From positions 2,999,350 through 3,063,349 of the forward strand of contig FO203512.1 in assembly GCA_000967895.1 (NCBI GenBank): a stretch of DNA of 64,000 bases. Direction: 5' to 3'. The stretch comes from Oleispira antarctica RB-8 (GTDB lineage: Bacteria; Pseudomonadota; Gammaproteobacteria; Pseudomonadales; Oceanobacteraceae). This document shows positions 1 through 15,349 of this stretch, one piece after another. A program made the position numbers and the translations under genes. The notes beneath the pieces are model-generated. The model was not told the origin of the DNA. It made no database searches and saw nothing but the letters and a program-made list of their open reading frames with translations. Each line of letters begins with the position of its first letter. Within the stretch, counting starts at the first letter, position 1.

Positions 1-647
1 CTTTGCATATCACGACGACTTTCTTGCTTAGGGTCGTAGTGATACTGCTCTTCTGTCGGCAGTTCTATGGCAACATCTGGGCTTGCAACACTGCCCGACT
101 GATGCTCTAGCACTTGCCCACCCTTTGCATTAATTGTTACATCCGAAGCCGATAAACCGCTGCTGCTACTGGTGGCATTCTTTTGCCCTAATAACGAGCG
201 GCTACTTTTTTGTACCTTACCAGCATCCGCTACAAAGACATTTTTCTTTTGTTGTTTAGGCGCACTCGCCGCACTGCTCAACGCGCTAAGCTGTTGCGAA
301 AGCGCAGCCAAACTCGAAGCATTACTGCTCGGCGGTTTTACTTTGGCAGCATCACTGGTTTTCTTACTCGCCACAGGTTTCGGTTTTGGCTTGGGCGCTT
401 CTACAGGAGGTGCTTCTTCAGGCGCACGCACAACTTCAGGTGGGTCAAGCGCCAACTGCATAACGACCTTTTTCACAACCTCAGGTTCTGCAGAGAAGTC
501 GGGTAATAACGGCATTACAATGAGCAGTACCATAAGAGGTATTACGATACGTTTAGCGAGCTTTTTAAAGTACTCAAATTGCTCTTCATTTTCGTGCCAC
601 GGCAGTACAACATCAAGGGCAAGGTGATTGAGTGCAAGATTACTCAT
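1..647 (-). CDS. AgmX/PglI-type TonB-like protein, C-terminus outside window
   Basis: The reading frame starts at the ATG at 647 and stays open to the window edge, so about 215 residues are visible and the C-terminus is missing. A short cytoplasmic head rich in acidic residues (LPWHENEEQFEYFKK, about residues 15-29) precedes one membrane helix (about 33-50). A Pro/Glu/Lys-rich stretch with KPKPKP and a long Ala/Ser-rich linker follow, the usual layout of TonB and AgmX/PglI periplasmic spanners. The start overlaps the stop of the upstream ExbD gene by 8 bases (ATGAGTAA), suggesting translational coupling. The likely role, by family and context, is to carry the energy of the ExbB/ExbD channel across the periplasm. 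The domain that would settle AgmX versus TonB lies outside the window, so the subfamily is inferred from the neighbours. Confidence 0.8.
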   Translation of the reverse strand, partial: MSNLALNHLALDVVLPWHENEEQFEYFKKLAKRIVIPLMVLLIVMPLLPDFSAEPEVVKKVVMQLALDPPEVVRAPEEAPPVEAPKPKPKPVASKKTSDAAKVKPPSSNASSLAALSQQLSALSSAASAPKQQKKNVFVADAGKVQKSSRSLLGQKNATSSSSGLSASDVTINAKGGQVLEHQSGSVASPDVAIELPTEEQYHYDPKQESRRDMQ

Positions 648-1155
648 TACGATTCACCTCCACGACGCCAGAAACAACCTGGTTTACCGCCAAGGCGATA
701 TCGCGATAGTTCTCTTCTGAACAACTCGCCATCACACTGCGTAAGATTTCATAAGGAACGTTTTGGTCGCCTAAAATGGTGACTGAGCGACCATTTTCCT
801 TTTCAAACGCGTTCATCTCACTGTTTTCTTCGCTGTTTTTCTTTAGCACATCGGTAATTTCAGATACCGCTTTGCCGTCTGCCTCTTTTACTTTCTCAAG
901 GCTTACAATTTCGACATCATCAATGCTAATAAATTCTGTGCCTACCGTAATCAGCAATTCATTCGAAAACGAACTTTTCGCGAATGAATCTGGCAAGGTA
1001 ATAAATTTTGCACTTTCAATTTCTTGGCTATCACCTGAGTTCATCAATAGGAAGAATACCAAAATGGTAAAAATATCCATCAATGAAACAAGGTGCAGTC
1101 CTGCGGTTTTTTTGGCCGTAGGACGCTTGTATAAACCGGTATTATTTAATCCCAT
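640..1155 (-). CDS. ExbD/TolR-family proton-channel subunit (canonical Asp present)
   Basis: This 171-residue protein has a short basic N-terminus, one membrane helix (about residues 20-38, LVSLMDIFTILVFFLL) and a periplasmic domain, the standard ExbD/TolR plan. Asp27 sits where ExbD and TolR carry the protonatable aspartate needed for proton flow. It follows a second ExbD-like gene after 8 bases and overlaps the AgmX-like gene by 8, so the three are one transcript with the ExbB gene upstream. By family it forms the ion pathway with ExbB and couples proton motive force to a periplasmic partner. Its periplasmic part is longer and more acidic (about residues 85-125) than in E. coli TolR, which suggests a partner specific to this system. 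Confidence 0.9.
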   Translation of the reverse strand: MGLNNTGLYKRPTAKKTAGLHLVSLMDIFTILVFFLLMNSGDSQEIESAKFITLPDSFAKSSFSNELLITVGTEFISIDDVEIVSLEKVKEADGKAVSEITDVLKKNSEENSEMNAFEKENGRSVTILGDQNVPYEILRSVMASCSEENYRDIALAVNQVVSGVVEVNRNE

Positions 1156-1163
1156 TGTTTATC

Positions 1164-1667
1164 CTACTTTTTGCCATCTTTGTTGATGTCACCTAGGGAT
1201 ATCTGTGGAAATAATTCCACCTCCGCTAAGCTTGCGACAACAACAGTTTGATATGATTTCACCGTATCCATGGTATTCAATAACGTTTGATATTCTAGAT
1301 CTTTGGTTAATAAAATTAACGCGTCTTTTTTATCCGTTACTCGTTGTTTTACTTCGCGCATCACCAAGGACAGCGTTTGAAAATCTTGCGTGCCACTTTC
1401 TAATAGCGGAATATCTTTAACCAATGAGCCACTCGGGAAATACACCTGTATACCCGATTTACGCACCATAATTTCTAGCTGCGACTGGTCCATTGATGAA
1501 CTGCTTGGGCCACCGCCTAGTTCAGGTAGATTAATTTCCATCACACTGATCTTGGTAAAAGTCATACTCATAAGCAGCACCGGAACCAGTACAATCATCA
1601 GGTTCATAAAACTGGTTACGTCGATGTCTGCATCATCAGTATTTTGACGTTTTATTTTGAATCCCAT
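1164..1667 (-). CDS. Second ExbD/TolR-family protein, membrane Asp replaced by Asn
   Basis: The 167-residue protein has the ExbD signature: acidic N-terminus, IDVTSFMNLMIVLVPVLL as the single membrane helix (about residues 15-34), then a periplasmic domain starting EINLPE. Aligned with E. coli ExbD (INVTPFID), the conserved ion-carrying Asp falls on Asn22, so this copy cannot carry protons at that position. Asp14 and Asp16 lie just before the helix and are probably outside it. The gene follows the ExbB gene by 16 bases and precedes the canonical ExbD by 8. One channel protein with two unlike TolR-type proteins matches the AglR/AglQ/AglS motor arrangement of Myxococcus. I infer that it is a structural or regulatory subunit rather than a proton carrier. 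Confidence 0.88.
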   Translation of the reverse strand: MGFKIKRQNTDDADIDVTSFMNLMIVLVPVLLMSMTFTKISVMEINLPELGGGPSSSSMDQSQLEIMVRKSGIQVYFPSGSLVKDIPLLESGTQDFQTLSLVMREVKQRVTDKKDALILLTKDLEYQTLLNTMDTVKSYQTVVVASLAEVELFPQISLGDINKDGKK

Positions 1668-1683
1668 AATAAGTACTTCGCTA

Positions 1684-2448
1684 CTAGTTTTCTTGAAGCT
1701 GCGGTTCTTTAAGCTGCTCTTCTTTCTGCTGATTATGTTTCAGCTTATCTTCTATGCGCTTAATTTCTTGAATATTATATTCTTGCTGCTTCTCTTTTGG
1801 GATGCCTGCTTGTATGGCACGGTTTAAGGTCATCACATTAAGAAATTTAACGCCGCCCATTTCAATGCTGCCAATAATTTTATTGGTTTTGTTACTTAAA
1901 AACGCGTGCGCAATCAATAACGGAATAGCGGCAATCAAACCGAATGCCGTGGTGTTCATCGCCACCGAAATAGACAGTGATAATAACTTTGCCTTTTCAG
2001 AAGGATCAGCATTGGCTACCGCGGTAAAGGCGGCGATCAAACCAATAATGGTACCCAGCAGTCCTAATAGCGTTGCGACGTTAGCCAGTACGGCTAAGTA
2101 GCCGGTACGCTCTTCTAAACGTGGCACAGCTTCCATCATGCCTTCACTCATCGCTTGCTCAACATCAGCGCGCTGTTCCGTGACCTTCATCATGTCTAGA
2201 CCACAACCGATCATACGCGAAATAGGCGCTGTATTATCGCGGGTAAACAAGGTCATCTTTTCGTGATCATTGGTGCGTAATAACGGTAAAAAGTCATCAA
2301 ATGCTTTTAAATTACGAGCACGTTCTTTATTCAGATAGCGCCAGCGTTCAATCGTAATGGCTATACCAATGGCAAATGCCAAGCCGATGGGATAGAGAAA
2401 CAAACCACCTTCTTGGAAAAACTTAACAATAGCTGCGAAAAATTCCAT
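1684..2448 (-). CDS. MotA/TolQ/ExbB proton channel family protein
   Basis: At 254 residues with three membrane helices (about 15-33, 117-140 and 161-184), this matches ExbB/TolQ. The conserved stretch ANVATLLGLLGTIIGLIAAF covers the second helix and carries the GLLGTxxG signature. The long cytoplasmic loop between helices 1 and 2 is typical. The C-terminal 40 residues are highly charged (Lys/Glu/Gln) and probably cytoplasmic. By family it forms the pentameric inner-membrane channel around ExbD helices. It heads the ExbB-ExbD-ExbD-AgmX block and lies 44 bases after a small exported-protein gene, so it belongs to the larger leftward operon. This arrangement is not the E. coli tol-pal or exbBD layout. 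Confidence 0.93.
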   Translation of the reverse strand: MEFFAAIVKFFQEGGLFLYPIGLAFAIGIAITIERWRYLNKERARNLKAFDDFLPLLRTNDHEKMTLFTRDNTAPISRMIGCGLDMMKVTEQRADVEQAMSEGMMEAVPRLEERTGYLAVLANVATLLGLLGTIIGLIAAFTAVANADPSEKAKLLSLSISVAMNTTAFGLIAAIPLLIAHAFLSNKTNKIIGSIEMGGVKFLNVMTLNRAIQAGIPKEKQQEYNIQEIKRIEDKLKHNQQKEEQLKEPQLQEN

Positions 2449-2492
2449 AACTCAAACCTTCTCTTCTTTTAATCTAATCGATTTAATTTCGA

Positions 2493-2774
2493 TTATTTCT
2501 GTACTTGTTCTAAGTTTAATTCGTTGTATATGCGCATTGAGCGCAGCATTACGTCGCGGTCGACGGCATCAATGCTTTTTTCATACTTGTCTTCTTCTTT
2601 GCGGTAAAGTTTGTCATTACCCCCAGGGCCTTCCCAAGGAACAAAGTAACTCACTGCAGGTTGTTCTTTATCACCGACGAAATTACTTTGTAGTTTTATC
2701 GGCTCTTCTGCCAAGCTCGTATTGCTGGCAAATGCAGCGAGCAAAGAAGCCAATAAAAGAATGCGTTTAATCAT
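2493..2774 (-). CDS. Small exported protein of the ExbB/TPR cluster, function unknown
   Basis: This 93-residue protein begins with a clear signal peptide (MIKRILLLASLLAAFASNTSLA, cleavage near residue 22). The mature part is about 70 residues, polar, with FVPWEGPGGNDKLYRKEEDKY in its first half and a predicted helix at the C-terminus. No domain is recognised. It starts directly after the stop of the TPR lipoprotein gene and lies 44 bases before the ExbB-like gene, so it is clearly in the operon. Position and export suggest a small periplasmic accessory subunit of the envelope machine; this is inference. Signal peptide, length and operon position support it as a real gene. Confidence 0.8.
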   Translation of the reverse strand: MIKRILLLASLLAAFASNTSLAEEPIKLQSNFVGDKEQPAVSYFVPWEGPGGNDKLYRKEEDKYEKSIDAVDRDVMLRSMRIYNELNLEQVQK

Positions 2775-3482
2775 TTATGCCTGCCCTGCTGATGCGCGTT
2801 CGTTTAACTGTTGCAGCCATTCCAAACTTTCTGCATCACCACCGGTTAACAGAATATAAGCGTCTAAATGCTGCTTCGCTTTTGCGGCCTGATTCAGGTA
2901 AATATCAAATAAGATGCTGAGGTTGTAATGCGCCTCAGGAAAATCTGGCCACAGCGCTAAGGCTTTGGCGAGGGTATTTTGTGCGTGGTCATAACGCCCC
3001 TGCAAACGCTGTACGCTGGCTAAGGCGGTATAACCGTTAATATTATTTGGATTAACGGTTAAGCCTTGCTGATAATGCTTTAGCGCTTGCGGATAATCTT
3101 TTTCTGCCAGGGCAATATCCCCTAGCATCATCCAAGGGCCAGACAGCGCGGCGTCATTTTTAATGATGACGTTCAGCTTCTGTTTGGCGGTATCAGCATC
3201 TTCGTTGCGCCACGCGCTTTTGGCTTCGATAAACAACAGCACCGAACCTTTATCGACTTGTGCTTTCTGCGCAAGATAAGGATTTTCTTTCTCTTGATAC
3301 GGAATCAATTGATTTTTCTCATCATACGTTTGCACTGGCAAGTACTGCTCGGTCGCTACTAGATCAACTTTCCCTTGCGTATCTTGCAACTGAAAACCTT
3401 TTTTACTGGCACAGCCTGATGCCAATAGCACTGATAACAGCACCATAAAGAATGCAGTTTTATTAAAGAATTTCATCACCAT
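2775..3482 (-). CDS. TPR lipoprotein
   Basis: The 235-residue protein has a lipoprotein signal with lipobox LASGC and a predicted lipidated Cys24. Residues about 85-210 contain TPR units, with sequences such as GPWMMLGDIALAEKDYPQA and NGYTALASVQRLQGRYDHA spaced about 34 residues apart. The residue after the Cys is Ala rather than Asp, which favours sorting to the outer membrane. Its start overlaps the end of the 971-residue TPR gene by 20 bases, consistent with coupled translation. A likely role, by analogy with PilF-type TPR lipoproteins, is scaffolding at the outer membrane for the neighbouring motor; this is inference from context. Confidence 0.88.
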   Translation of the reverse strand: MVMKFFNKTAFFMVLLSVLLASGCASKKGFQLQDTQGKVDLVATEQYLPVQTYDEKNQLIPYQEKENPYLAQKAQVDKGSVLLFIEAKSAWRNEDADTAKQKLNVIIKNDAALSGPWMMLGDIALAEKDYPQALKHYQQGLTVNPNNINGYTALASVQRLQGRYDHAQNTLAKALALWPDFPEAHYNLSILFDIYLNQAAKAKQHLDAYILLTGGDAESLEWLQQLNERASAGQA

Positions 3483-6378
3483 ACCTCGCTACGGCTTCTG
3501 TTTTATCAAAACGCTCAGGAGATAAACGTCGCATGGCATTAAAACTGTTTTCGATCCAGCTGTTAAAGTGCCCCTGCCAACCCAGCTCGATATTATTATG
3601 ATGGATTGTTTGTGCTAATTCCGTGAACGGTGCGGCTTGTTGAGAAAATATTTGCTTATACAGGGCTTTTTCTTCTGCGCTGGCTTCTTTTGGAATCGGT
3701 GCGGCTAATAATTCTTCGCTAAATTTCTCATACAGATCGGCCATTTTCACATTGGCCATGCTGACAAATTCCAACATGCCGTAGTCTGCAGCCATGGCAT
3801 AGCGAGCTTTTGCATCCGTTAAATAACCATTTTTGCGCGCAATACTTTTATCAATCGGTGCTCGTAAGCTGCGACGATAAAACTCTGAGGCAAAATAATC
3901 ACCGTATTTGGCATTCGCCCAAGCGCCTAACCATTGGCTACGCTCTGTACGCTCTGCGCCGCCTTTAGCATCACCATCAATCACACGGCGCAACCAAAAC
4001 AGCTGACGACCATGGTCTTTTTGCTTTTCGTATAAGCTGGCTAAGTGAAAACGGGCTTCCATGCGATTATCAAATGGCTTTTCATATTTATGCGCATAAT
4101 CACGATAGTATTTTATCGCCAGATCAAGATCGTCTGTTTTCTCTGCTAAACCTGCAGCAATAAATAAAGCCTCTTGACGTACATCGTCACTTGGGTCGTT
4201 ATTCATTAAATACTGATAAGCAACCAACGCTTGCGGCCAGTCTTTTTTGTTCTCGTATGCGAAAGCAATTTTTCGTGGAAATTCAGCGGCAAGTTTATGC
4301 TTAGGATATTTCGCTTTTAAGTCCTTCAACTCAACCAAGGCGTTATCCCATTGCTTGTCCGCCAACATTAATGAACTGGCATCGTACTGGGCAATAATGC
4401 GAATATTGGTTTTAGGCGCTAATTGCTTAAGGCTTAGCAAGGTAGCGATGGCTTTTTCGCTACGCTGAGCTTTGCTTAGTGATTCAACCCCTTGTGGTAA
4501 CCATTTTTCATCCTGCCACAATTCAGCTTGCTTATAGGTTGCTGCGGCTAGTTGCTGACTTATTTCTTTATATTCTGCACTCTTCTTATTGGTTAGCTTA
4601 CGCTGAGCGATGTAGTTGCTTTGGGCTAACTGATAATTGCCCTTCTTGAAATACGATTGCGCGATAATGCCATAAGCTGTTTTCTTCAACTCTGGATTCT
4701 TTGGCCCTGCTTTACTCACCAATTCGGTAGCAATTTTTATAGCTTGGTCGTATTCATTCAAGGCAAACAAGGTTTGTGAAGCATTTGTTAGCACGGATAC
4801 CGAACGCTCGTCATCATGAAAGGTGCTGGCAAACTTCAATAAACTGGTTAACGTTTGTGTGCGCCACGCGGTCATGTCCTTACCCTCTTTCAGGGTATCT
4901 AAATGCTTTTGGTGGGCAACGATATTGGCATAAGCGGCTTTATTCGCCAGTTCATAACCACTCTTCTTACTGTATACGCTTTCTTCATTGCTACGACTAT
5001 TTTCTCCATAGCCAACGACTTCGTAATCGCGAGCAGCCAACGCAAACTGAGTATTTTCAAAATGCGCTTCTGCTTTCTTAAAACGTATTTCTTCGCTGTC
5101 TTTTTGGCTATTAAAATGGGTTAAATATAAACCATAAAACTGCGTTGCTTGGTTCAGTGATTTTTCACCCAGTTCAACCAAGTGCTCTTCTTTTGGCTGC
5201 CTTTTAGCTTTCTGTAGTGCTTGCTGGCCTAGGCCATGGTAATGACTTGCAAGTTCGATGTAATAGTTTTGCAGCTGTTTAAGTATGTTGCCTTGCTGAT
5301 CGGTATGCTGGGTAAAGTATGTTGAACTCGGTCCATACAAGCTGCTGTAGTTTTCTTTTTCTTCTAATACGAGTTTCGGAAAAGCGCCCTTCACATAAAC
5401 CTGAATTAGGTCTTGATGAAATTGGTTGCTATACGCATTATTTGGATGACGCTTAATATAAGACGCGTACGTAGTCGCACTGTCATTATAAAGTGACTTT
5501 TCTAAATAGAATTGTGCAAGTTCGCGATACAACTGCCACACATAAGTTTTATTTTCTAATAAGGCAATATCTTGTATCGCTTCTGCACCACCGAGATTAA
5601 TTAAGGCTAAACTCATGCTATGCAGGGTATCGCTAACCAAAGATTTTTCGACATTGTTCAATTCTGCATTGGAATCTTTCGCCATTAATAGCTGATCTAA
5701 TACTAGGGCGAAGTGATGCAATGACTTCTGATAAATACCTTGCTTATAGAACGACCATGCCAACATGTAGTGAGCGTTATTATTAAGTTTCGCTTCTTGT
5801 CGCTGGGTGGTTTGAAAGTAGGCTAACTCAGCTTTGTGGTAACGTGCGCTATTAAAATAGATATCACCAATGCGGAAATAGACTTCAGCCATATTTGGAT
5901 AGTACGGGTGACGATCGACTAAGCGCTCCAACATCTGCAAGGCATTTTGAGTTTGCCCTTCCATGTCATACGCTTTGGCTAGCTGATAAAGTACTTCTAC
6001 GTTATCGGGACTATTAGGGTATTTTTCTAGAATATCGCGATAGCTGGCAATAGCATTACGATAATAGCCTTTTTTCGGAGCACTGTTTTCATCACTTTGC
6101 TCGGCATTACCTTCCAACATATGAACGCCTGAAATACGACGTTCAATCTGCTCTTTGATGTATTCATCGTCGACTAATGCTAATAACTCTTGGTATTGAT
6201 CACGCACCTGCTGATGATCAAGCTTATCAATTTTCTCTTCGTTAATTTCACTTAAGTCTGCCTGTTGCAAGCCACCAATCGTGCCTTGAGAGGTACACGA
6301 AATCGTAGCGCTGACAGCCACTAGCGTGAAGATTAATTGCACACTTTTTAATTGTGCGAGTTGCTTTATCATTTTCAT
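3463..6378 (-). CDS. Large TPR protein, probable lipoprotein
   Basis: At 971 residues this is the largest protein of the cluster. A hydrophobic leader (about residues 12-27) ends at ATISC, a weak lipobox with Cys28 as the possible lipid site; a secreted soluble protein is the alternative. The body is helical and built of many TPR-like units, for example PDNVEVLYQLAKAYDMEGQ and NMAEVYFRIGDIYFNSARYH near residues 110-175 and DVRQEALFIAAGLAEKTDD near 740. No enzyme motif is seen. The gene overlaps the upstream TPR gene by 4 bases (ATGA) and the downstream lipoprotein gene by 20. Size and repeats suggest a long periplasmic scaffold comparable to TPR components of gliding or secretion machines; this is inference. 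Confidence 0.88.
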   Translation of the reverse strand: MKMIKQLAQLKSVQLIFTLVAVSATISCTSQGTIGGLQQADLSEINEEKIDKLDHQQVRDQYQELLALVDDEYIKEQIERRISGVHMLEGNAEQSDENSAPKKGYYRNAIASYRDILEKYPNSPDNVEVLYQLAKAYDMEGQTQNALQMLERLVDRHPYYPNMAEVYFRIGDIYFNSARYHKAELAYFQTTQRQEAKLNNNAHYMLAWSFYKQGIYQKSLHHFALVLDQLLMAKDSNAELNNVEKSLVSDTLHSMSLALINLGGAEAIQDIALLENKTYVWQLYRELAQFYLEKSLYNDSATTYASYIKRHPNNAYSNQFHQDLIQVYVKGAFPKLVLEEKENYSSLYGPSSTYFTQHTDQQGNILKQLQNYYIELASHYHGLGQQALQKAKRQPKEEHLVELGEKSLNQATQFYGLYLTHFNSQKDSEEIRFKKAEAHFENTQFALAARDYEVVGYGENSRSNEESVYSKKSGYELANKAAYANIVAHQKHLDTLKEGKDMTAWRTQTLTSLLKFASTFHDDERSVSVLTNASQTLFALNEYDQAIKIATELVSKAGPKNPELKKTAYGIIAQSYFKKGNYQLAQSNYIAQRKLTNKKSAEYKEISQQLAAATYKQAELWQDEKWLPQGVESLSKAQRSEKAIATLLSLKQLAPKTNIRIIAQYDASSLMLADKQWDNALVELKDLKAKYPKHKLAAEFPRKIAFAYENKKDWPQALVAYQYLMNNDPSDDVRQEALFIAAGLAEKTDDLDLAIKYYRDYAHKYEKPFDNRMEARFHLASLYEKQKDHGRQLFWLRRVIDGDAKGGAERTERSQWLGAWANAKYGDYFASEFYRRSLRAPIDKSIARKNGYLTDAKARYAMAADYGMLEFVSMANVKMADLYEKFSEELLAAPIPKEASAEEKALYKQIFSQQAAPFTELAQTIHHNNIELGWQGHFNSWIENSFNAMRRLSPERFDKTEAVARYGDEIL

Positions 6379-8147
6379 TGCGGACCTGCCTGCTGTAACG
6401 CATCTTCTTCTATGGTATTGAGCGTTTGATCGTATAAACGCGCTTTCCCTAGGCGTGCTTGCGCCCAGTAATATCTCATTCGTTCTTCATGCTTATCGAG
6501 TTCGGCGTTGACGACGATGCGCATGACATTTTCGAGTTTCTTAATCATGCGATCGGTTTGCTGAAGCTGGTGCTCGATACGCTTATGCAATCTCGCCATC
6601 CAACGCAGTGTTTTTTCTGACTCTTGATAAGGCTTTTCGATTTTGGCAATTTTGGCAAAGTTCGTTTCTAAAAATTTAAAGTCGTCTTTGGTTGCATCTA
6701 ACAACGGAGCGAAACGGTTTTGTTCTTTTACGCTCAGTGTTTTTGCATGCAAGCCTAGCTCACTGATCTGAATTTCCATCACGTCTTTTTCTTTTTTGCT
6801 AGCACTGACAAAGTCGCGCAAAGTTTCACTGCTCCATCCTTGATGACGATGACTAATGATCAGCTGATGCTCTTGCGCCTGGCGAGACCAATAGTTTAGA
6901 TTTTCACGCAAGGCATATAGATCACGCAATTCTTTTAAAACAATGTGAAAAGAGTTCGATGACATCAATTCGATTAAGAACGGCGTCAGCTTGTTATAGT
7001 CGAGACTTGGCTCGCTGCCATACCAGTCAGTTTCATCCATCATGGCATCGAGATTAATAACAAATTCTTCAGGAATGCGTTGACCTGCAATAATTCTGCG
7101 TGCGGAGTCGATGCTTTCAATACCACTGGCAAAAGCTCGTTCTGCTAATAAGTATTGCTTCAAGGCTGTACGCGGTGCGCTTTGCTGCTCGTATAAATGC
7201 GCCAAAAGCACTTTCGCTTCTTGCACTTCCGCAATACTGATGGAGCGATGATCAAGGGCACTTAGCGCTGGAATGGCAATGTCGTAGCGTTCTAATTTAA
7301 TCGCTGTCCAACCATAACTCAGCAAAGCACGATTACTGTACAGACCCGTTGTACGAACAAACTGCAAATGCGCCCAAGCAGATAATAAATCGCCTTGCTC
7401 AACATCGATATGCGCTAAGGCTTGTTTCGCGCGATCAGCCAGTACTTGAAATTCTTCTTTTGGATGCGTATTGCCATAATCGACAACCTTTTGAAAATTC
7501 ACTTCGCTGCTTTTAGTATCACCGTTTGTAAGCTGTGATGAGGCCAAGTTAAAAATCAAATAAGGTTCAAAAACACTGCCTTTCATTACACTGTTTAGCG
7601 CTTTTTCAACACTGCTTAAGTTTTTATTCCGAATATTAATCAGAGTGGCAAGATAGTTATATTCGTTATGAATGACACTTGGGATATCGCCCTGAATGTA
7701 ACCTAAAGTTGTCGCTGCTTTTTTAGCTTCACCCTTGTGATAGTACATTTTAGCTAAATAAAACCAGGCTTTATTGCGCACTTCGTCGCTGATCTCGACA
7801 TTGCTGCGTTCGCTATCACGACTATTGTCAGCATTAAGCAGTTGTTGAAAAATATTCTCAGCTTCATCTGGTAAACCATAAGATAAGGTCATGCCACCAT
7901 GCAGCAAACGTGCTTCATCTATTTGATGATTCAATTCACCTCGACTATTCGCCACTTCATAACCGATCAACGAAGCGAAATAATTTTGCTGATAATAATC
8001 AAACAAAATAGTGCCGTATTTTAAGTCACGTAGTTTAATTTCGTCTTCGGCATTAACCTGACTTACCATGATTACATTAGAAATAACGAAACCGGAAATC
8101 AGTAGAATAGAAGAACGCAGAAGGTTACCTATGGAGTTTTTCAACAT
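6375..8147 (-). CDS. Periplasmic TPR protein of the motor cluster
   Basis: I place the start at the ATG at 8147 (590 residues). It has an AAGGG ribosome site five bases upstream and begins a good signal peptide (cleavage near VNA, about residue 31). An in-frame ATG at 8204 would overlap the upstream gene by 50 bases and hide the signal peptide. The N-terminal two-thirds holds TPR-like helix pairs, such as NKAWFYLAKMYYHKGEAKKA. The C-terminal third is long charged helix, probably coiled coil. It overlaps the 971-residue gene by 4 bases and lies 7 bases after the secreted coiled-coil gene. No catalytic motif is visible. Role inferred as a periplasmic scaffold partner of the ExbB/ExbD machine. 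Confidence 0.85.
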   Translation of the reverse strand: MLKNSIGNLLRSSILLISGFVISNVIMVSQVNAEDEIKLRDLKYGTILFDYYQQNYFASLIGYEVANSRGELNHQIDEARLLHGGMTLSYGLPDEAENIFQQLLNADNSRDSERSNVEISDEVRNKAWFYLAKMYYHKGEAKKAATTLGYIQGDIPSVIHNEYNYLATLINIRNKNLSSVEKALNSVMKGSVFEPYLIFNLASSQLTNGDTKSSEVNFQKVVDYGNTHPKEEFQVLADRAKQALAHIDVEQGDLLSAWAHLQFVRTTGLYSNRALLSYGWTAIKLERYDIAIPALSALDHRSISIAEVQEAKVLLAHLYEQQSAPRTALKQYLLAERAFASGIESIDSARRIIAGQRIPEEFVINLDAMMDETDWYGSEPSLDYNKLTPFLIELMSSNSFHIVLKELRDLYALRENLNYWSRQAQEHQLIISHRHQGWSSETLRDFVSASKKEKDVMEIQISELGLHAKTLSVKEQNRFAPLLDATKDDFKFLETNFAKIAKIEKPYQESEKTLRWMARLHKRIEHQLQQTDRMIKKLENVMRIVVNAELDKHEERMRYYWAQARLGKARLYDQTLNTIEEDALQQAGPQ

Positions 8148-8154
8148 AAAACCC

Positions 8155-8742
8155 TTACCACTGTTTGATGGTAAATTTAGCTTCTTGCTTGGCACTATCG
8201 TCAATGATGGCCAGTTCTAAATACTGGCTGCCTTGTTTCTTTTGAAATTCCAATTCAGTCGCCCTTTTATAGGGTCTGCCGTTGGGGCCTATGCCGGTAA
8301 AAAAAGCGGCGATGGTATGTTTACCTAAATTAAGGTTGGTAATATAAAGCCGCTGTACGCCGCCACGAGCCAGAGCTTGTCGCTGTTTGTCACTGTATAG
8401 ATGAGTAGCGACTTGCTTGCCATCGAGCTTTACCTTGATACTTTCTAGGGTAAAAAATTGACCTATATCTAACGAGACAAATAGCGACAACTGCGTACTG
8501 GAAGGAAAAAGCAGTTCTTCTTCCATTAGTTGTAGGTCCTTATTCAGGTCGACAACCGATTTTTTAAGCCCTTGAATTTCTTTCGATAATACTTTCACTG
8601 AATCAAGCGCGCGCTGGGCATTTTTCTGATCTTTTTGCTCAGAAAAATCGATACTTTGATCGTTAGCCCAACTGCTAAGTGGACTTATTAATAAGCTCAA
8701 AAAAATAAATATGCAGGAGTTAGTTAGCCCAAATGTTTTCAT
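8155..8742 (-). CDS. Secreted coiled-coil protein heading the motor operon
   Basis: The 195-residue protein has a signal peptide (cleavage after SSWA, about residue 27). A predicted coiled coil follows (about 33-77, with heptads of Leu/Val/Ile among Lys/Glu). The C-terminal part is beta-rich (about 80-195), with phrases such as LDGKQVATHLYS and LNLGKHTIAAFFTGIGPNGR that resemble a small Ig-like or carbohydrate-binding fold. No named domain can be assigned. It is the first gene of the leftward operon, 7 bases before the TPR gene, so it is probably periplasmic and part of the machine. Related proteins are sometimes labelled as AraC-type regulators, which this sequence does not support: there is no helix-turn-helix and there is a signal peptide. 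Confidence 0.8.
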   Translation of the reverse strand: MKTFGLTNSCIFIFLSLLISPLSSWANDQSIDFSEQKDQKNAQRALDSVKVLSKEIQGLKKSVVDLNKDLQLMEEELLFPSSTQLSLFVSLDIGQFFTLESIKVKLDGKQVATHLYSDKQRQALARGGVQRLYITNLNLGKHTIAAFFTGIGPNGRPYKRATELEFQKKQGSQYLELAIIDDSAKQEAKFTIKQW

Positions 8743-8794
8743 AACCTCTCCTTTATTTAATAGGTTTATTTAAGCACGTACTTATACTCGATAT

Positions 8795-8820
8795 GGCTCG
8801 GCAAATCGATTGGCCGAGCC
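8795..8820. other. GC-rich hairpin between the divergent motor-cluster operons
   Basis: A perfect 8-base stem (GGCTCGGC and GCCGAGCC) encloses a 10-base loop. It lies 53-78 bases upstream of the secreted coiled-coil gene and has no T run on either side, so it is not a clear terminator. It may be part of the 5' leader of the leftward operon or a binding site. A TATAAT hexamer at 8896-8901 is a possible -10 element for the rightward genes, but I see no matching -35. Confidence 0.35.
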
Positions 8821-8987
8821 CTTCTAATGTCTGTAAAAGCGAAGCTCATCACAATATCAGCAGCTTGTGAGTAAGTTTTTTAAATATGTTAGGTCTATAA
8901 TGGCGCTCCTCGAATGTTTTCTTCGAGTTCTTTCTTTTGAACATTTCTTTCGTCACGTTCTGCGAGAGTTTTATCAGGTACTGGGTT

Positions 8988-9734
8988 ATGTTTCGCAGCT
9001 TTTTGACCTTCAACTTTGTTTTTCTGTGTATTGCTTTTAGCAATTTTGCCGCGGCCGAAGCATCTGTCGAACTTATTGTTATTGATACCTATTTAGAAAT
9101 GCATTCAGGCCCAGGCCGTGGTTATCCCATTATTCATACTATGGAGCAGGACGAGCCGATTACCGTATTACGTCGTCGTGGCAATTGGTATCAGGTCGCT
9201 AATCGCCACCTTAAAAAAGGCTGGATTCAGCAAGAAAAATTAGCTCGTACAATTGCTCCTAGTGGTTTGCCGGCAGCCCTACCCGATACACAACATGGTG
9301 ACTATCTCGCTCAGCAAGGACGAATTGGTTTTGCCTTAGGCCAACAAGGGGATGCTGAAACAGCCACCTTAGTTGCAGGCTTTCGCTTATTCAGTTTTGT
9401 CGGTGCCGAGTTAGAACTGGGACAGATTTTTGGCACCAGCATCGATGGCACCAGCTATGGGGCAAACCTATTATTTGAACCCATTCAAAGCTGGTCGTTC
9501 ACCCCTTTCATAAGCACCGGCCTTGGTAAGCAAAGCTGGAAGCAAAAAGAAAAACTCAATGTGGGTACTTCCAATGAGTTCAATAGCGAGTACACCTTTA
9601 TTGGTGGCGGCATAAATTATTATATTGGTTATAACTTTGTTGTTCGTGGTGAGTACCGTCAGGTATCGCTCACGGGTGATAACGATTCTTTGAGGAATTC
9701 CGCATGGCGAATTGGTTTCAGCAGCTTCTTTTAA
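8988..9734 (+). CDS. SH3-domain outer-membrane beta-barrel protein
   Basis: I choose the ATG at 8988 (248 residues) because it begins a signal peptide ending near FAAAEA; the longer frame from 8937 puts a hydrophilic tail in front. Residues about 27-80 form a bacterial SH3 (SH3b) domain, with LEMHSGPGRGYPIIHTM, a WYQV motif and GWI near its end. From about 100 to the C-terminus come alternating hydrophobic strands ending in Phe-Phe (IGFSSFF), the signature of an outer-membrane beta-barrel. The SH3 part would sit in the periplasm and might bind peptidoglycan. The 3' end overlaps the next barrel gene by 31 bases. Divergent placement against the ExbB/ExbD operon suggests that it is the outer-membrane side of the same machine. 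Confidence 0.82.
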   Translation: MFRSFLTFNFVFLCIAFSNFAAAEASVELIVIDTYLEMHSGPGRGYPIIHTMEQDEPITVLRRRGNWYQVANRHLKKGWIQQEKLARTIAPSGLPAALPDTQHGDYLAQQGRIGFALGQQGDAETATLVAGFRLFSFVGAELELGQIFGTSIDGTSYGANLLFEPIQSWSFTPFISTGLGKQSWKQKEKLNVGTSNEFNSEYTFIGGGINYYIGYNFVVRGEYRQVSLTGDNDSLRNSAWRIGFSSFF

Positions 9735-10366
9735 TTGCTTTTTTAAGCACCAGTCTTATCACGATCACCACTCCCGCATGGGCTGAAGATGGGGATGTTG
9801 ATATTAATCCGATTATCGTGGTGGAACCCGATAATACTCAGCGCGAAGCGTATGAAGCCCAAATTGATAGTGAATTTTTTGAACTGGGGGCCTATGCCGG
9901 AATTTTAGCCATTGAAGATTTTGGCAGTTCTAGCGTATTCGGTGTGAAAGCGTCTTTTCATGCGACGGAAGATTTTTTCTTGCAGGCCAATTATGGCCAA
10001 GCGGAAGCGGGATTGTCGACAGCCGAATATATTTATGGTGATAGTGAGACATCCATCATTACAGACAGGGACTATCGCTATTATAATCTATTGGTGGGTT
10101 ACAACCTGTTTCCTGGTGAAACATTTGTGACCCAAGACTTAACTTTTAATAGTGCATTCTATTTAGTCGCGGGTGCTGGCAATACAGATTTTGCCGATAA
10201 TAATCATTTCACGATTACGGTTGGTAGTGGTTATCGCATTATCTTAAAAGACTGGTTAACAATTAATGTTGATTTTCGCGACCATAGCTTTGAAGCTGAA
10301 ATTGGCCCAAAAACGAAACGCACACACAATTTAGAATTTAGCACCGGTTTAACCGCTTTTTTCTAA
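9704..10366 (+). CDS. Outer-membrane beta-barrel protein (myxobacterial-type OMP family)
   Basis: The 220-residue protein has a signal peptide (cleavage after PAWA, about residue 27). A linker follows that is rich in Asp, Pro and Val (about 30-50). An eight-strand-type barrel then ends in Leu-Thr-Ala-Phe-Phe, with the terminal Phe needed for outer-membrane assembly. The arrangement fits the outer_membrane_beta-barrel family first noted in myxobacteria, which often sits beside AgmX/ExbD genes; that link is from memory of the family. The gene begins inside the previous one (31-base overlap, different frame), which implies coupled translation. It probably pairs with the SH3-barrel protein. Confidence 0.8.
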   Translation: MANWFQQLLLIAFLSTSLITITTPAWAEDGDVDINPIIVVEPDNTQREAYEAQIDSEFFELGAYAGILAIEDFGSSSVFGVKASFHATEDFFLQANYGQAEAGLSTAEYIYGDSETSIITDRDYRYYNLLVGYNLFPGETFVTQDLTFNSAFYLVAGAGNTDFADNNHFTITVGSGYRIILKDWLTINVDFRDHSFEAEIGPKTKRTHNLEFSTGLTAFF

Positions 10367-10417
10367 TGATTTTAGTGCTTTCTTGTACGTGTTTAAAATG
10401 AATATCAAGGTGTTTGT

Positions 10418-11152
10418 ATGATGAAATTTAATAACATTAAAGCGCTACTGTTATCGCTGGTCCTTTTTCCTTGTGCTAGTACTCTGGCAGAAGAAATTAG
10501 CCCTGGTGACTTTGACGAGCTATGCCGTTGCATTGACCCGTCTAACGGCGTACGTCAAATTCCTGTTCTGATTCGTGATTTCAAACAATCTCACCCTGAT
10601 TTTGAAGGCGGAATTTTTGGCTACGATAAAGGTATCGTTGAGAAAGATATTGGTGCTGACGGGCGTCCAGTATACGCGGGTAAAACTTATACAACTCACG
10701 GTAAAGAAACCTTTGACCAGTGGTATAAATCGATTCCGGGTTTGAACCTACCGATTAATAAAACGTTAGAAATGGCGGAAGTTGAACCGGGTTTATATCG
10801 CTTTACTGACTTTGATTTTTTCCCGATTGATGGTGAAGGTTTTGGTAATGAAGGTTTCACTCATAATTATCACTTCACCCTAGAGACTCATTTAAAATTC
10901 TTTTATGTTGAAGGTGGTCAGTTTACGTTTAACGGGGATGATGATTTATGGATCTATATTAACGGTAAATTAGCCATTGATATTGGTGGTGTTCATGGCC
11001 GTGAGACGAAGACTGTTCAACTAGATACTCTTGCTGAGGAGCTGGGCATAGAGCCTAATAATACCTATTCATTTGATTTATTCTTTGCTGAGCGCCATAG
11101 CACTGAATCGGCCTTCCAATTTGAAACTACGTTTGAATTGCAGTGTTTGTAA
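10418..11152 (+). CDS. Secreted fibro-slime domain protein
   Basis: The 244-residue protein has a signal peptide (cleavage after TLAE/TLA, about residue 24) and a single fibro-slime domain. The family markers are visible: IPVLIRDFKQSHPDFE near the start, FTFNGDDDLWIYINGKLA near residue 170 and SFDLFFAERH near 220. The fold belongs with PA14-like sugar-binding beta domains. A conserved-looking Cys pair (CRC, about 36-38) and a final Cys may form a disulfide. An AAGG ribosome site lies 7 bases before the first ATG. It is 51 bases after the barrel gene on the same strand, so it may be a surface-exposed adhesin-like part of the machine or an independent secreted protein. Confidence 0.85.
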   Translation: MMKFNNIKALLLSLVLFPCASTLAEEISPGDFDELCRCIDPSNGVRQIPVLIRDFKQSHPDFEGGIFGYDKGIVEKDIGADGRPVYAGKTYTTHGKETFDQWYKSIPGLNLPINKTLEMAEVEPGLYRFTDFDFFPIDGEGFGNEGFTHNYHFTLETHLKFFYVEGGQFTFNGDDDLWIYINGKLAIDIGGVHGRETKTVQLDTLAEELGIEPNNTYSFDLFFAERHSTESAFQFETTFELQCL

Positions 11153-11221: not shown

Positions 11222-12796
11222 CTACTGTACGTAACGCAGGCTCTCTGAGAAATCTTGTTTTACAGCTTCACCCATGTGAATAGTGAAGGTTTCATTATCC
11301 CCAATTGAGTCAGACCATAAATATAAATGGTCTTGCCAAGAACCTGAAGACCAGCGCTGTAAAAAGTAATCTTTACCGTTTACGGTGCTGCGATCAACAA
11401 AGGCAATTTGATCACCATTTTTTAAACAATCACCGTCGTCATTAAGAATACGCACACGCAGTTTGTTAGACGCATTATCTTGGTTGGTGAAAAACGCGTA
11501 GTTGCCACCACCGCCGCCGAGATACCAATTCCAATAAGAGCCTGTCCGCTGTGCACCCTGCACTTGAATCCAGTCATCATGACGAATACAGAAGGCACGA
11601 TTCTTTGGATACCAGTTGTCTAGATTCATCACTGTCGCCGGATCCCTTACGTCACCCTTTACCGTTAACCAGCCGTCACTATCATTAGCATCTATTTTAA
11701 CAAACTTACCATTGGCTTTGTTTTGGAACTGTACACCTTGGTAAGGGTTGTTAACCGCACGGAAGCTCTCAGTACGCGTATCTGCGTTCGCGTAAGAAAA
11801 AGCCGCAATGGGGTAATGATCAGACAATTCTTGAAAGCGATAGTTATCCACACTCCAGTTAGTCGAAGTGACGTCCAGCGATTGGTTATGCCAATGACTT
11901 GGCTGGGCGTGATTACGGGATACAAAAATGTAATCCAGGTATTCACTCGGTAAGTCTGGGTAGTTATACGCAGCAATACCATTAGACTCAGGATCCCAGC
12001 TGGTTGAGAAACCGGCAAAGGCATCAGGCTCACTGACCTGCAAGGTTTCGATGAGGTCTGGATATTCATCCGTGCTTTTAATCACGTTGAAGTCACCGCC
12101 CATGAAAACAACTTCGTCGGCTGGAATGTTATGACCCGCGATGAAGTTTTGCATTTCAATGAACTGACTCTTACGCGTTGCTGCTGGGTCAGTACAAGCA
12201 CTATCTTCTGCTTGAGCATGGGTGCTGATTAGGTGATATGCCGCGCCGTTTTTATCGACTCGGGCATAAACAAAACCTTTATTAGACAGGTAGTCTGCAC
12301 CACAAGCTTCTTTGTACACATATTGAATTTGTTCTGTGATTGGCCAGCGACTGACGATCGCTACGCCACCGTCTTCTGGTGATAGATCGGCATACGCACC
12401 GAGTGTTTCATCCCAGCCACTTTTAGAACGACCCATCACCGGAGTTTGGTATGGGTAGTCAGTTTTTAAGCCATTCATCAGAGTGGTTGCTGGGCCATTA
12501 TCAAACAGCTCTTGCAATAAAATAGCATCTTGGCCTTTGACTATTTCTGATTGTGGAATCATTTGCGCACGGCCTTCGTGATTCCAGCTGAATAGTGTTT
12601 CTGGCAGCATGTAGACGTTGTAGGCTAACAAACGAAAATCATCAACGTAGGCTAGGCCGCTTGATTCTACCGGTATTGCTGGTGCTACCACGACAGGTTC
12701 GGCACTGGGCGTATCTGACATCGCCAAAGTGAAATTACTGTTTAAGCCAGCCAGTGCAATGCACGTTCCTAGACTTAGGGTCTTGTTAAACTTCAT
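11222..12796 (-). CDS. Secreted sphingomyelinase C-like phosphodiesterase
   Basis: The 524-residue protein has a signal peptide (cleavage near residue 25) and an endonuclease/exonuclease/phosphatase (DNase I-like) domain at about 50-335. The catalytic set of bacterial neutral sphingomyelinase is present: Asn60, Glu96 (QELFD), His193 (STHAQ), Asp235 and Asn237 (GGDFNV), Asp288-Tyr289, and Asp326-His327 (SDHYP). By family it splits sphingomyelin to ceramide and phosphocholine using Mg2+. Residues about 345-520 form an extra beta-rich domain with repeated G-x-W and F-V/I-x motifs, like the beta-trefoil or fascin-like tails of secreted hydrolases, probably for binding. Bacillus and Leptospira enzymes are the closest known model. 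True substrate preference (sphingomyelin or another phosphodiester) cannot be read from sequence. It seems to be monocistronic. Confidence 0.83.
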   Translation of the reverse strand: MKFNKTLSLGTCIALAGLNSNFTLAMSDTPSAEPVVVAPAIPVESSGLAYVDDFRLLAYNVYMLPETLFSWNHEGRAQMIPQSEIVKGQDAILLQELFDNGPATTLMNGLKTDYPYQTPVMGRSKSGWDETLGAYADLSPEDGGVAIVSRWPITEQIQYVYKEACGADYLSNKGFVYARVDKNGAAYHLISTHAQAEDSACTDPAATRKSQFIEMQNFIAGHNIPADEVVFMGGDFNVIKSTDEYPDLIETLQVSEPDAFAGFSTSWDPESNGIAAYNYPDLPSEYLDYIFVSRNHAQPSHWHNQSLDVTSTNWSVDNYRFQELSDHYPIAAFSYANADTRTESFRAVNNPYQGVQFQNKANGKFVKIDANDSDGWLTVKGDVRDPATVMNLDNWYPKNRAFCIRHDDWIQVQGAQRTGSYWNWYLGGGGGNYAFFTNQDNASNKLRVRILNDDGDCLKNGDQIAFVDRSTVNGKDYFLQRWSSGSWQDHLYLWSDSIGDNETFTIHMGEAVKQDFSESLRYVQ

Positions 12797-13577: not shown

Positions 13578-14288
13578 ATGCACGCCACAGTTCTCATTGT
13601 TGATGATGAAGCGGTAATAAGAGCCCGCTTAAAAGGCTACTTTGAAAAAGAAGGATACAAGGTCTTAGAAGCCGAAAATGGTGCTGAAATGTGGCATCAG
13701 TTTGAACGCCATGCCATTGACCTTATTATGCTCGACATTAACTTACCCGATTGTGATGGTTTAAGTCTGGCACGTGAATTAAGAAGTCGTAGTCACGTTG
13801 GTATTATTTTAGTCACCGGTAGAGATGAAACCATCGATAAAATTGTTGGCCTAGAAATGGGGGCGGATGATTACGTTACTAAACCTTTTGAATTGCGTGA
13901 ATTATTAGTCCGAGTAAAAAACCTACTTTGGCGCATGTCTTTGGTGAAATTAGCAGAGATAAATACCCTCAAAGAAATGGAGGAAAGCGACGATAAAATT
14001 TGTTTTGAAAATTATATTCTTGTATTAAATAGCCGCCAACTCAAACGTGATAATACGATAATTAAACTAACCAAAGCAGAGTTTGAATTACTCGCCGCAT
14101 TTTCATTGCATCCGCAGCAAGTACTCTCTCGGGAGCGCTTGATGCAGTTAACTAGCCACCGTAACGAGGGGGTTCATGATCGCACCATTGATGTCATCAT
14201 TCGCCGATTGCGCAATAAACTAGAGACAAATCTATTTGTTACTGTACACGGTGAAGGTTATTTATTTGCCGCTAAGGTGAAAGACTAA
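13578..14288 (+). CDS. torR: TMAO-response regulator TorR (OmpR/PhoB family)
   Basis: The 236-residue protein has a receiver domain (1-120) with the acidic pair Asp9-Asp10, phosphoacceptor Asp53 (MLDINLPD), Thr80-region VTGRDE and Lys at DDYVTKPFELREL. A winged-helix DNA-binding domain (about 145-232) ends in RRLRNKLE and VHGEGYLF. The run VGIILVTGR...IVGLEMGADDYVTKP matches E. coli TorR almost exactly. Phosphorylated by TorS, it should activate the torFECAD operon when TMAO is present. A GGGATG ribosome region precedes the ATG. Its stop codon overlaps that of the convergent torT by 4 bases (CTAA). Confidence 0.95.
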   Translation: MHATVLIVDDEAVIRARLKGYFEKEGYKVLEAENGAEMWHQFERHAIDLIMLDINLPDCDGLSLARELRSRSHVGIILVTGRDETIDKIVGLEMGADDYVTKPFELRELLVRVKNLLWRMSLVKLAEINTLKEMEESDDKICFENYILVLNSRQLKRDNTIIKLTKAEFELLAAFSLHPQQVLSRERLMQLTSHRNEGVHDRTIDVIIRRLRNKLETNLFVTVHGEGYLFAAKVKD

Positions 14289-15349
14289 TCAGGGACAACT
14301 CGATAGATCGGATAATAATCAGCTGGCGCTAAACTGGTTTCTGAATAGTGCGTACTAATAGCTTGCATTCTCTGTGTTTGGATAAGAGGCCCTATATCAC
14401 CAAAAGCACTAGCCCCTTCTAGCTCTCGTACCATAACATCAATCGCAAGCTGTCCTTGAGTGACCACCAGATCATCATTACTAAATTGTACTTTTTTTCT
14501 ATGAATCGCCCTTAAAATCGCGGGCGATAAATAGCTACTGACTAGTTGTATTTTACCCTCTAGTTCTTTTTGGCGCAGTACACTCACGGCGGCTTCAATC
14601 GCCACTGCACTGCCCAGTATATAATCTGGGGTTTGTGAGAGTAAAAGTATTTCGAGCTGGTCACGGTAAAGATTCCGGTTATTATCCGCATGTTGAATGG
14701 CGGATACCGTTACCAAAGAGCCTTCAAGCGCATCAATAATACCTTGCTCCACGCTATCACTACCGCCTTGCTTGTTCGGCCCTGCCAATATAGCCAAGGT
14801 ACTCTTTTCCTTCTCATTCTGACGAACAAATAGTCCTGCGCGGTAACCCATTTCGTACCAATTAACACCTATACGAGTAGAGACTTTGTCGCTGTCTAAA
14901 CGATTCACTAGGGCGATGATAGGCTTGGTAATCGGTGGCTGATATTTAGCAAGAAGACCAGGGCTAACAGCCCCTAATAAAATGCCATCAAAACTCTGCG
15001 TCAGACAATAATCTAATTGATTAAGCTGCTTGTCCTCAGCGTAATAACTTCCTGCTTCGAATAATTCCAGCTGAATATTAAGTGCCTTCGCATGAGTGAC
15101 TAAACCGTAATTAATCCCCATCCAATAAGCGTCTTTTAAATGAGGTACCAGCACACAAACTCGCCAAGAATTTTTGACGCTAATTAACTGTTTATATTCA
15201 ATATTATTAATGCTTTGTATAGCTTGGTTAAAAGGCTTTCTTTGCTCTAAGGACCAAGGATTTTTCAACTCTGCTACTACGAAGGGGCCGTATAATGCGA
15301 ACATTAGTGCTATTATAATAGGTAACTTAATACGTTTTTTTAACAGCAT
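14285..15349 (-). CDS. torT: Periplasmic TMAO-binding sensor protein TorT
   Basis: The 354-residue protein has a signal peptide (cleavage near VVAE, about residue 27) and the type-I periplasmic binding fold. TorT-like stretches are seen, such as VCVLVPHLKDAYWMGINYGL (about 64-83) and GILLGAVSPG. The family binds TMAO in the periplasm and presents the signal to the TorS sensor. The gene is divergent from torS with a 67-base gap and convergent with torR with overlapping stop codons, so the three regulatory genes alternate in strand. A ribosome site is weak (AAAGGA about 12-13 bases upstream). Confidence 0.93.
   Translation of the reverse strand: MLLKKRIKLPIIIALMFALYGPFVVAELKNPWSLEQRKPFNQAIQSINNIEYKQLISVKNSWRVCVLVPHLKDAYWMGINYGLVTHAKALNIQLELFEAGSYYAEDKQLNQLDYCLTQSFDGILLGAVSPGLLAKYQPPITKPIIALVNRLDSDKVSTRIGVNWYEMGYRAGLFVRQNEKEKSTLAILAGPNKQGGSDSVEQGIIDALEGSLVTVSAIQHADNNRNLYRDQLEILLLSQTPDYILGSAVAIEAAVSVLRQKELEGKIQLVSSYLSPAILRAIHRKKVQFSNDDLVVTQGQLAIDVMVRELEGASAFGDIGPLIQTQRMQAISTHYSETSLAPADYYPIYRVVPD

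Follow-up and report, generated by a model that had tools for sequence, protein, structure and literature searches.

What kind of machine is built when a gammaproteobacterium encodes a single ExbB/TolQ-like proton channel with two unlike ExbD-like subunits, a TonB-style spanner and several tetratricopeptide repeat (TPR) proteins in one operon, and what might it move? The question is raised by a gene cluster at positions 1-11152 of a 64,000-nucleotide stretch of Oleispira antarctica RB-8 (FO203512.1), hereafter the window, to which all coordinates refer unless a locus is named. Judged by its sequences and their arrangement, the cluster is kin to the gliding motor of myxobacteria and corresponds to the Agl/Glt core complex described in gammaproteobacteria (Luciano et al. 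2011, PMC3169522). Its two ExbD-like proteins differ at the proton-carrying position, one having Asn and the other Asp, and this asymmetry recurs in most of the related operons.

The cluster consists of a nine-gene minus-strand operon, with gaps of at most 44 bp and several overlaps, whose ninth gene crosses the left end of the window, and of three genes that run divergently to it on the plus strand. An earlier sequence-only reading had listed these genes in this arrangement, and open reading frame and profile searches recovered every one of them:

8742-8155, minus strand: CC195, an exported protein with a coiled coil and a beta-sandwich, encoded at the head of the operon and used as system marker in our genome scans
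8204 (probably 8147)-6375, minus strand: TPR609, a TPR protein, GltC-like by position; only weak TPR matches, all below cut-off
6378-3463, minus strand: TPRlip971, a 971-amino-acid TPR lipoprotein with a lipobox-like N-terminus, GltD-like by position (TPR_6, 77.5 bits)
3482-2775, minus strand: TPRlip235, a 235-amino-acid TPR lipoprotein, GltE-like (TPR_11, 49 bits; NCBIfam GltE, 34.9 bits, below the cut-off of 225)
2774-2493, minus strand: sm93, a small exported protein kept across the operons compared; no Pfam or NCBIfam family matched
2448-1684, minus strand: ExbB/TolQ-like proton channel subunit, AglR-like (PF01618, 91 bits)
1667-1164, minus strand: ExbD1, an ExbD-like axle subunit whose motif FMNLM has Asn where the proton-carrying Asp would stand (PF02472, 48 bits)
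1155-640, minus strand: ExbD2, an ExbD-like axle subunit that has the Asp in its motif LMDIF (PF02472, 45 bits)
647-1, minus strand: GltG-like TonB-style spanner of the AgmX/PglI type, N-terminal 215 of 305 amino acids in the window (myxo_SS_tail, 59.2 bits, cut-off 40)
8937-9734, plus strand: SH3bb265 (the SH3-barrel protein), an SH3 domain with a barrel-like C-terminal part (SH3_3, 34 bits, above cut-off; OMP_b-brl, 25.4 bits, just under 28.7)
9704-10366, plus strand: OMPmyx220, an OMP_myx_plus barrel (TIGR04565, 162 bits, cut-off 60)
10418-11152, plus strand: exported protein with a fibro-slime domain (TIGR02148, 109 bits, cut-off 45)

The complete 305-amino-acid spanner lies at L009:14080-14997, its remainder being left of the window. 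For TPR609 the start may be the TTG at 8204 or the ATG at 8147, of which the ATG better fits the same-family relatives of 562-574 amino acids.

The aligned proton-carrier column holds Asn in ExbD1 and Asp in ExbD2 of the window. Counted by protein (123 of each type, window pair included), the ExbD1-type residue is N in 118, S in four and D in one, while the ExbD2-type residue is D in 123/123. For the count by operon we took 150 motor operons, each defined by an ExbB match above 150 bits followed by two ExbD matches within 1.5 kb, and left out all others; duplicates are included (at least L165/L246, L169/L247 and L193/L245 are identical). The operons were grouped by locus number. The first group (L030-L242, n=119, with the window pair as reference outside it), mostly gammaproteobacteria with some Nitrospirota, KSB1, Calditrichota and Myxococcota, comprises 114 N/D operons, four S/D operons, all from Microbulbifer (L175, L184, L191, L197), and one D/D operon; thus, N or S is paired with D in 118/119 and the ExbD2-type Asp is present in 119/119. 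The second group (L245-L285, n=31), which covers Myxococcota together with loci of Hahella and Reinekea, comprises 21 N/D and 10 D/D operons, all ten of the latter coming from the Myxococcota scan. At the D/D loci the motif reads differently, for example PFIDLL and PFIDF, and these loci fit the description of AglQ and AglS as both having the conserved Asp (PMC9389320), M. xanthus itself lying outside these rows. An AglRQS motor in the strict sense, to which the sequence-only reading had likened the cluster, is accordingly not supported: ExbD1 is without the Asp that the literature gives for both AglQ and AglS.

The membrane Asp is required for proton flow, and the AglQ D28N substitution abolishes this flow in M. 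xanthus, as described in PMC3858216. Because two copies of ExbD1 together would offer no proton carrier at this position, an ExbD1/ExbD2 heterodimer is the likely unit of the motor, and the restriction of the Asp to ExbD2 points to an obligatory heterodimeric axle that is active on one side only. The part of PMC9389320 on AglQ and AglS states that their pairing, as heterodimers or as homodimers, is not known; the widespread Asn/Asp relative makes this pairing question testable. A working motor with one dead ExbD must either pair both subunits or spend some of its subunits on dead axles.

Conservation of the gene order in other genomes had been put forward as a check on the cluster, and we found the same order in seven of the nine same-family loci compared (six extend to the spanner and the L031 stretch ends earlier). 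The remaining two are L042, a different, myxobacteria-like cluster, and L043, with the barrel at a contig edge. The order also recurs in other families, the carriers including Hahella, Marinobacter, Microbulbifer, Marinagarivorans, Sessilibacter, Bermanella and Motiliproteus. CC195, searched with a model built from relatives of the window locus, occurs in 84 of the 369 genomes of the class. The genome of O. antarctica itself, a single 4.4-Mb contig, has 14 PF01618 matches, 13 besides the window ExbB. It encodes a second copy of the operon (L030, 2300091-2309102), whose ExbB is 58% identical to that of the window and which has a redoxin gene in front; a gene further upstream is presumably VWA-like. 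A further myxobacteria-like motor cluster was seen in L042 (genome G019, a relative of the window genome; spanner of 776 amino acids), L163, L165 and L166, from Bermanella, Reinekea and Nitrospirota.

The motor differs from the Tol-Pal and TonB members of its superfamily. The window ExbB reaches 68.6 of the 221 bits needed for the TolQ equivalog and 44.9 of the 206 needed for ExbB; the two ExbD proteins score 21.1 and 24.9 of 127.3 bits against TolR, and against the ExbD equivalogs 17-18 of 123-216 bits are obtained for ExbD1, with none listed for ExbD2. For the ExbB tree the rows were thinned by locus number to 101, and then to 94 by removal of seven long-branch paralogues from the window genome. 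In the 94-row tree, 90 AglR-type rows from gammaproteobacteria, Myxococcota, Nitrospirota and KSB1 (a sample that excludes the M. xanthus sequences) are separated from four ExbB-type rows by a split with support 100/100. The window ExbB falls within a gamma-type clade of 39 rows (100/100), which also includes L257, found in the Myxococcota scan, and L233, labelled Rhodospirillales; the 12-row set with the D/D operons forms a separate clade (100/98); the joins between clades are weak. Together with the AgmX/PglI match of the spanner and the conserved gene order, these results uphold the proposed kinship with the Agl/Glt machinery and the distinction from both tol-pal and exbBD-tonB.

They also bear on two conventional explanations. 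A Tol-Pal-like system, acting in outer-membrane stability or polar processes, would draw on the common motor superfamily, and there are resemblances beyond it: TPRlip971 matches YbgF at 55.9 bits, below the cut-off of 90.1, and a relative in L103 of the HzsA-like protein described below has a weak TolB-propeller match (21.7 of 343 bits). However, the TolQ and TolR equivalog cut-offs are clearly missed, the genome has its 13 other PF01618 matches, and presence in 84/369 genomes is a poor fit to a housekeeping task, so that we consider such a role improbable. An ordinary TonB-ExbBD energiser would account for the matches to the ExbB and ExbD Pfam families, yet the cut-offs of the ExbB and ExbD equivalogs are likewise missed, and neither a TonB family on the spanner nor a TonB-dependent receptor family among the cluster genes was found. 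The spanner matches the AgmX/PglI model at 59 bits with no TonB family listed in the Pfam and NCBIfam profile searches, and does not represent the ordinary TonB beside TonB-dependent receptors by which the sequence-only reading would have been overturned. We hold this explanation to be very improbable indeed.

Against the GltG equivalog (NF033760) the spanner obtains 25.5 bits for a cut-off of 650, the model of the C-terminal domain alone being above cut-off. The names GltC, GltD and GltE for the window TPR proteins rest on position, size and weak profile matches. Profiles of TPR609 and TPRlip971 find relatives at 31-79 and 234-294 bits, respectively, in the same four Myxococcota loci (L305, L307, L308, L309), those of TPR609 lying after the barrels. 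CC195 has no Pfam or NCBIfam family above cut-off; its structure model (mean predicted local distance difference test score, pLDDT, 88.5) shows an N-terminal helix, a long helix at 33-78 and beta strands at 84-194 that form a beta-sandwich, with no outstanding match in the PDB. Luciano et al. 2011 (PMC3169522) describe for the core complex one additional gene of which neither Myxococcales nor Bdellovibrionales have a homologue, and CC195 may be a candidate for it.

The barrels would provide the link to the outer membrane. OMP_myx_plus is above cut-off in 56 of the 369 class genomes, spanning 31 families, and CC195 is present in all 56, as against 84/369 overall; 44 of the 57 barrel places lie within 30 kb of CC195, the other 13 being on other contigs. 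Fisher tests on the linkages take no account of relatedness between the genomes. Among the 36 loci from class and order genomes outside the window's family that combine barrel and CC195, the motor is in the stretch in 14, the stretch or contig ends before it in 13, and nine are without it. Where the stretch ended early, the adjoining one held the motor in L124, L126, L128, L131 and L133. The SH3-barrel is likely a paralogue of the OMP_myx_plus barrel, as suggested by its relative in L103, which matches the C-terminal half of that family at 45 bits, below the cut-off of 60.

In Myxococcota, 47 of 57 genomes have OMP_myx_plus above cut-off, in many cases as two neighboring genes. Of 14 stretches examined there, four (L305, L307, L308, L309) have the barrels directly before GltC-/GltD-type TPR genes, and L308 shows the row ExbB-ExbD1-ExbD2-spanner-barrel-second barrel (58.3 bits, just under cut-off)-TPR-TPR; in the remaining ten, the gamma-based profiles detected no TPR genes next to the barrels, the L310 stretch ending at the barrel. 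GltB and GltA of M. xanthus are described as paralogous outer-membrane barrels that bind the TPR protein GltC and are encoded in one operon (PMC4488436), and gltA and gltB are given for Myxococcales and Bdellovibrionales only in the passages of Luciano et al. 2011 (PMC3169522) on their distribution. Our reading of the gene neighborhoods, a comparison outside which M. xanthus GltA and GltB themselves stand, is that a GltA/B-like barrel pair probably belongs to many of the core complexes. The barrels proposed as partners by the sequence-only reading do show a conserved linkage to the operon, though not every version of it has them.

A second group of genes recurs with the barrels. Most of the barrel loci examined outside the window's family encode, in this order, an HzsA-like protein, the SH3-barrel, the barrel, a redoxin, a DUF3570 protein and sometimes ApbE, followed by or divergent to the genes from CC195 onward. 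In 53 of the 56 OMP_myx_plus genomes a DUF3570 match is found no more than 6 kb from the barrel, the window genome being among the three exceptions, and HZS_alpha occurs in 48/56 barrel genomes versus 9/313 others, at most 5 kb from the barrel in 45 genomes. Two or three CxxCH motifs are present in 37 of 40 HzsA-like proteins longer than 700 amino acids, and the redoxins retain WCxxC in 48/54. In O. antarctica the HzsA-like gene lies downstream of the spanner on the minus strand, a little beyond the left end of the window (L009:13910-11031), and encodes 959 amino acids with a long DPT repeat and one CxxCH. On this HzsA-like protein, PF18582 is just under cut-off in one search and just over it in another. 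Relatives in the window's family (L288-L291) range from 1163 to 1945 amino acids, and five proteins of the family have no or one CxxCH.

These linkages suggest a different explanation, in which the older and general job of the machine would be the working of an extracytosolic outer-membrane redox or uptake complex, energised in a TonB-like manner and formed by the HzsA-like c-haem-type protein, the thioredoxin-like protein, the DUF3570 protein and sometimes ApbE, with the window lineage a derived one that has lost most of it and keeps a reduced HzsA-like protein. Such a case is strong for the wider family, where it draws on the frequencies just given, and weaker for the window locus, which is without redoxin, DUF3570 and ApbE and whose HzsA-like protein has its single CxxCH. 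ApbE is present in only part of the loci, the Hahella and Marinobacter loci are without redoxin and DUF3570 in the stretch examined, and the linked DUF3570 proteins are of a low-scoring class (below 156 bits), with the strict flavinylation motif missing in 34/45. Two higher-scoring DUF3570 genes are found with redoxin and ApbE elsewhere in the O. antarctica genome (L286, L287). The redox set is thus best viewed as a common but separable partner of the machine. As the primary role of the system, redox or uptake work is possible but decidedly less probable than the role we propose below.

Several further arrangements were observed among these genes. L286 (3214747-3221364), apart from the motor, encodes a two-CxxCH protein, a protein with a start like that of twin-arginine translocation (Tat) substrates, a redoxin, DUF3570 and ApbE in a row. 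Three more proteins of about 400, 850 and 550 amino acids recur beside the HzsA-like gene in L103, L123, L125, L127, L129, L130, L132, L134 and L142; in L103 the second of them matches LamG and, weakly, cytochrome c, and the third starts like a Tat substrate. No motor adjoins the barrel, redox and TPR genes of L105, L106, L107, L109, L113, L121, L135, L140 and L141, most of whose genomes have a second place with the marker.

The third divergent gene of the window offers a different potential client. The fibro-slime domain is above cut-off in 16 of the 44 genomes of the window's family according to GTDB. Among the 22 same-family genomes tested for both genes, it is present in eight of the nine that are barrel-positive and in none of the 13 that are barrel-negative; the exception is G002, whose barrel lies next to a redoxin fragment where the contig ends. 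In all seven same-family loci examined the fibro-slime gene adjoins the barrel. The fibro-slime protein begins with a signal-like sequence and contains a GDDDLWIYINGKL stretch, which may resemble PA14 lectins; against PA14 itself the protein scores 22.6 bits, just below the cut-off of 24. Beside the cluster, 11222-12796 encodes a protein of the sphingomyelin phosphodiesterase family (352 bits, cut-off 248), and 13578-15349 a TorR-type regulator and a TorT-type protein, the start of a trimethylamine N-oxide-sensing set.

Taken together, we propose that the cluster encodes a proton-driven trans-envelope machine of the Agl/Glt type with a one-sided heterodimeric axle, the barrel pair as its outer-membrane end and the fibro-slime protein as what it handles, an account to which we give an even chance. 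In the inner membrane, an ExbB-like ring would surround the ExbD1/ExbD2 pair, in which ExbD2 alone has the protonatable Asp, and proton flow through ExbB and the ExbD2 side would turn or shift the mixed axle. The GltG-like spanner would transmit the force across the periplasm, with CC195 and the three TPR proteins predicted to form the scaffold linking it to the barrel pair. The SH3-barrel and OMP_myx_plus proteins, presumably placed in the outer membrane, would be the equivalent of Myxococcus GltB/GltA. The machine might then display, move or release the co-encoded fibro-slime protein, a putative adhesin, comparable to Glt in Myxococcus, which is described as recruiting and retaining CglB (PMC13104615).

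A number of observations weigh against this proposal. On the side of the cargo, the fibro-slime gene is missing from the Hahella and Marinobacter loci, which are otherwise laid out like the window cluster, so that this cargo would at best be lineage-specific, and the structure model of the protein is too poor to be used (pLDDT 42.8). On the side of the barrels, 28 of the 84 CC195 genomes have none above cut-off, and the second operon copy of O. antarctica (L030) is without them. In nine barrel loci the motor is missing although the stretch extends more than 9.5 kb past CC195. A second CC195 place is found in seven of those nine genomes (of two examined, G335 has a motor there and in G319 none was seen), which suggests that a genome can keep barrels and motor at two separate places. 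Seven of the ten Myxococcota stretches in which the gamma-based profiles detected no TPR genes next to the barrels come from genomes with Asp/Asp motors. On the side of the motor, the only D/D operon among the 119 (G051, L120) has an ExbB of the gamma-type clade, and in the 101-row tree the 41-row group with the window is less clean, holding two long-branch paralogues from its own genome.

The same components invite the proposal of a gliding motor as in Myxococcus, the motor, TPR proteins, spanner and barrels all being akin to the gliding machinery. The Asn/Asp motor, however, is unlike the Asp/Asp given for AglQ and AglS in the relevant part of PMC9389320, and we think gliding a quite improbable output. 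On a broader scale, and only tentatively, the Agl/Glt core might represent an ancient class of asymmetric ion-driven motors with an obligatory ExbD heterodimer as axle, one side protonatable and the other dead, and often with a GltA/B-like pair. Its older task in gammaproteobacteria could have been the driving of a surface redox complex, with myxobacterial gliding, in part by Asp/Asp motors, and fibro-slime handling as derived uses.

Among known systems, the redox neighborhood is comparable to the DUF3570/thioredoxin-like/ApbE/DUF4266 clusters of Meheust et al. 2021 (PMC8238504), a study that also identifies DUF3570 as a substrate of ApbE: DUF3570, thioredoxin-like and ApbE proteins occur together there, as they do beside many relatives of the window cluster. 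Unlike in those clusters, the linked DUF3570 proteins here are low-scoring and mostly motif-less, and the set is absent from the window locus; ExbB has no mention in the main text of that study. The Nfs spore-coat system of M. xanthus is alike by description in that the Agl motor works with a Glt-like envelope set (PMC3858216), which includes the barrels NfsA and NfsB. The M. xanthus AglRQS-GltA-K machinery shares the motor type, TPR scaffold, GltG-like spanner and probably a paralogous barrel pair beside a GltC-type gene, and differs in the Asp described for both AglQ and AglS (PMC9389320), in additional Glt proteins, in CglB and in its known output.

The closest counterpart is the Group B core complex of Luciano et al. 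2011 (PMC3169522), where aglR, aglQ and aglS are reported as clustered with gltC, gltD, gltE and gltG in gammaproteobacteria, function unknown, with further occurrences in one betaproteobacterium, Geobacter and Fibrobacter. As this core complex was described there in gammaproteobacteria, the cluster is not new as such. As far as limited literature searches go, the asymmetric axle, the outer-membrane pair and the redox and fibro-slime linkages are new: the open-licence PMC literature searched, outside which most subscription papers fall, has no mention of the Asn/Asp asymmetry or of the barrel, redox and fibro-slime linkages, and the asymmetry is absent from the passages of Luciano et al. on the core complex. 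The two have in common the cluster of one ExbB-like and two ExbD-like proteins, a GltG-like spanner and GltC/D/E-type TPR proteins, and differ, relative to those passages, in the linkage described here to a barrel pair whose family is widespread in Myxococcota. The barrel and redox linkages point to specific outer-membrane partners for the core complex, whose function was unknown in 2011, and narrow its possible outputs to a few that can be tested.

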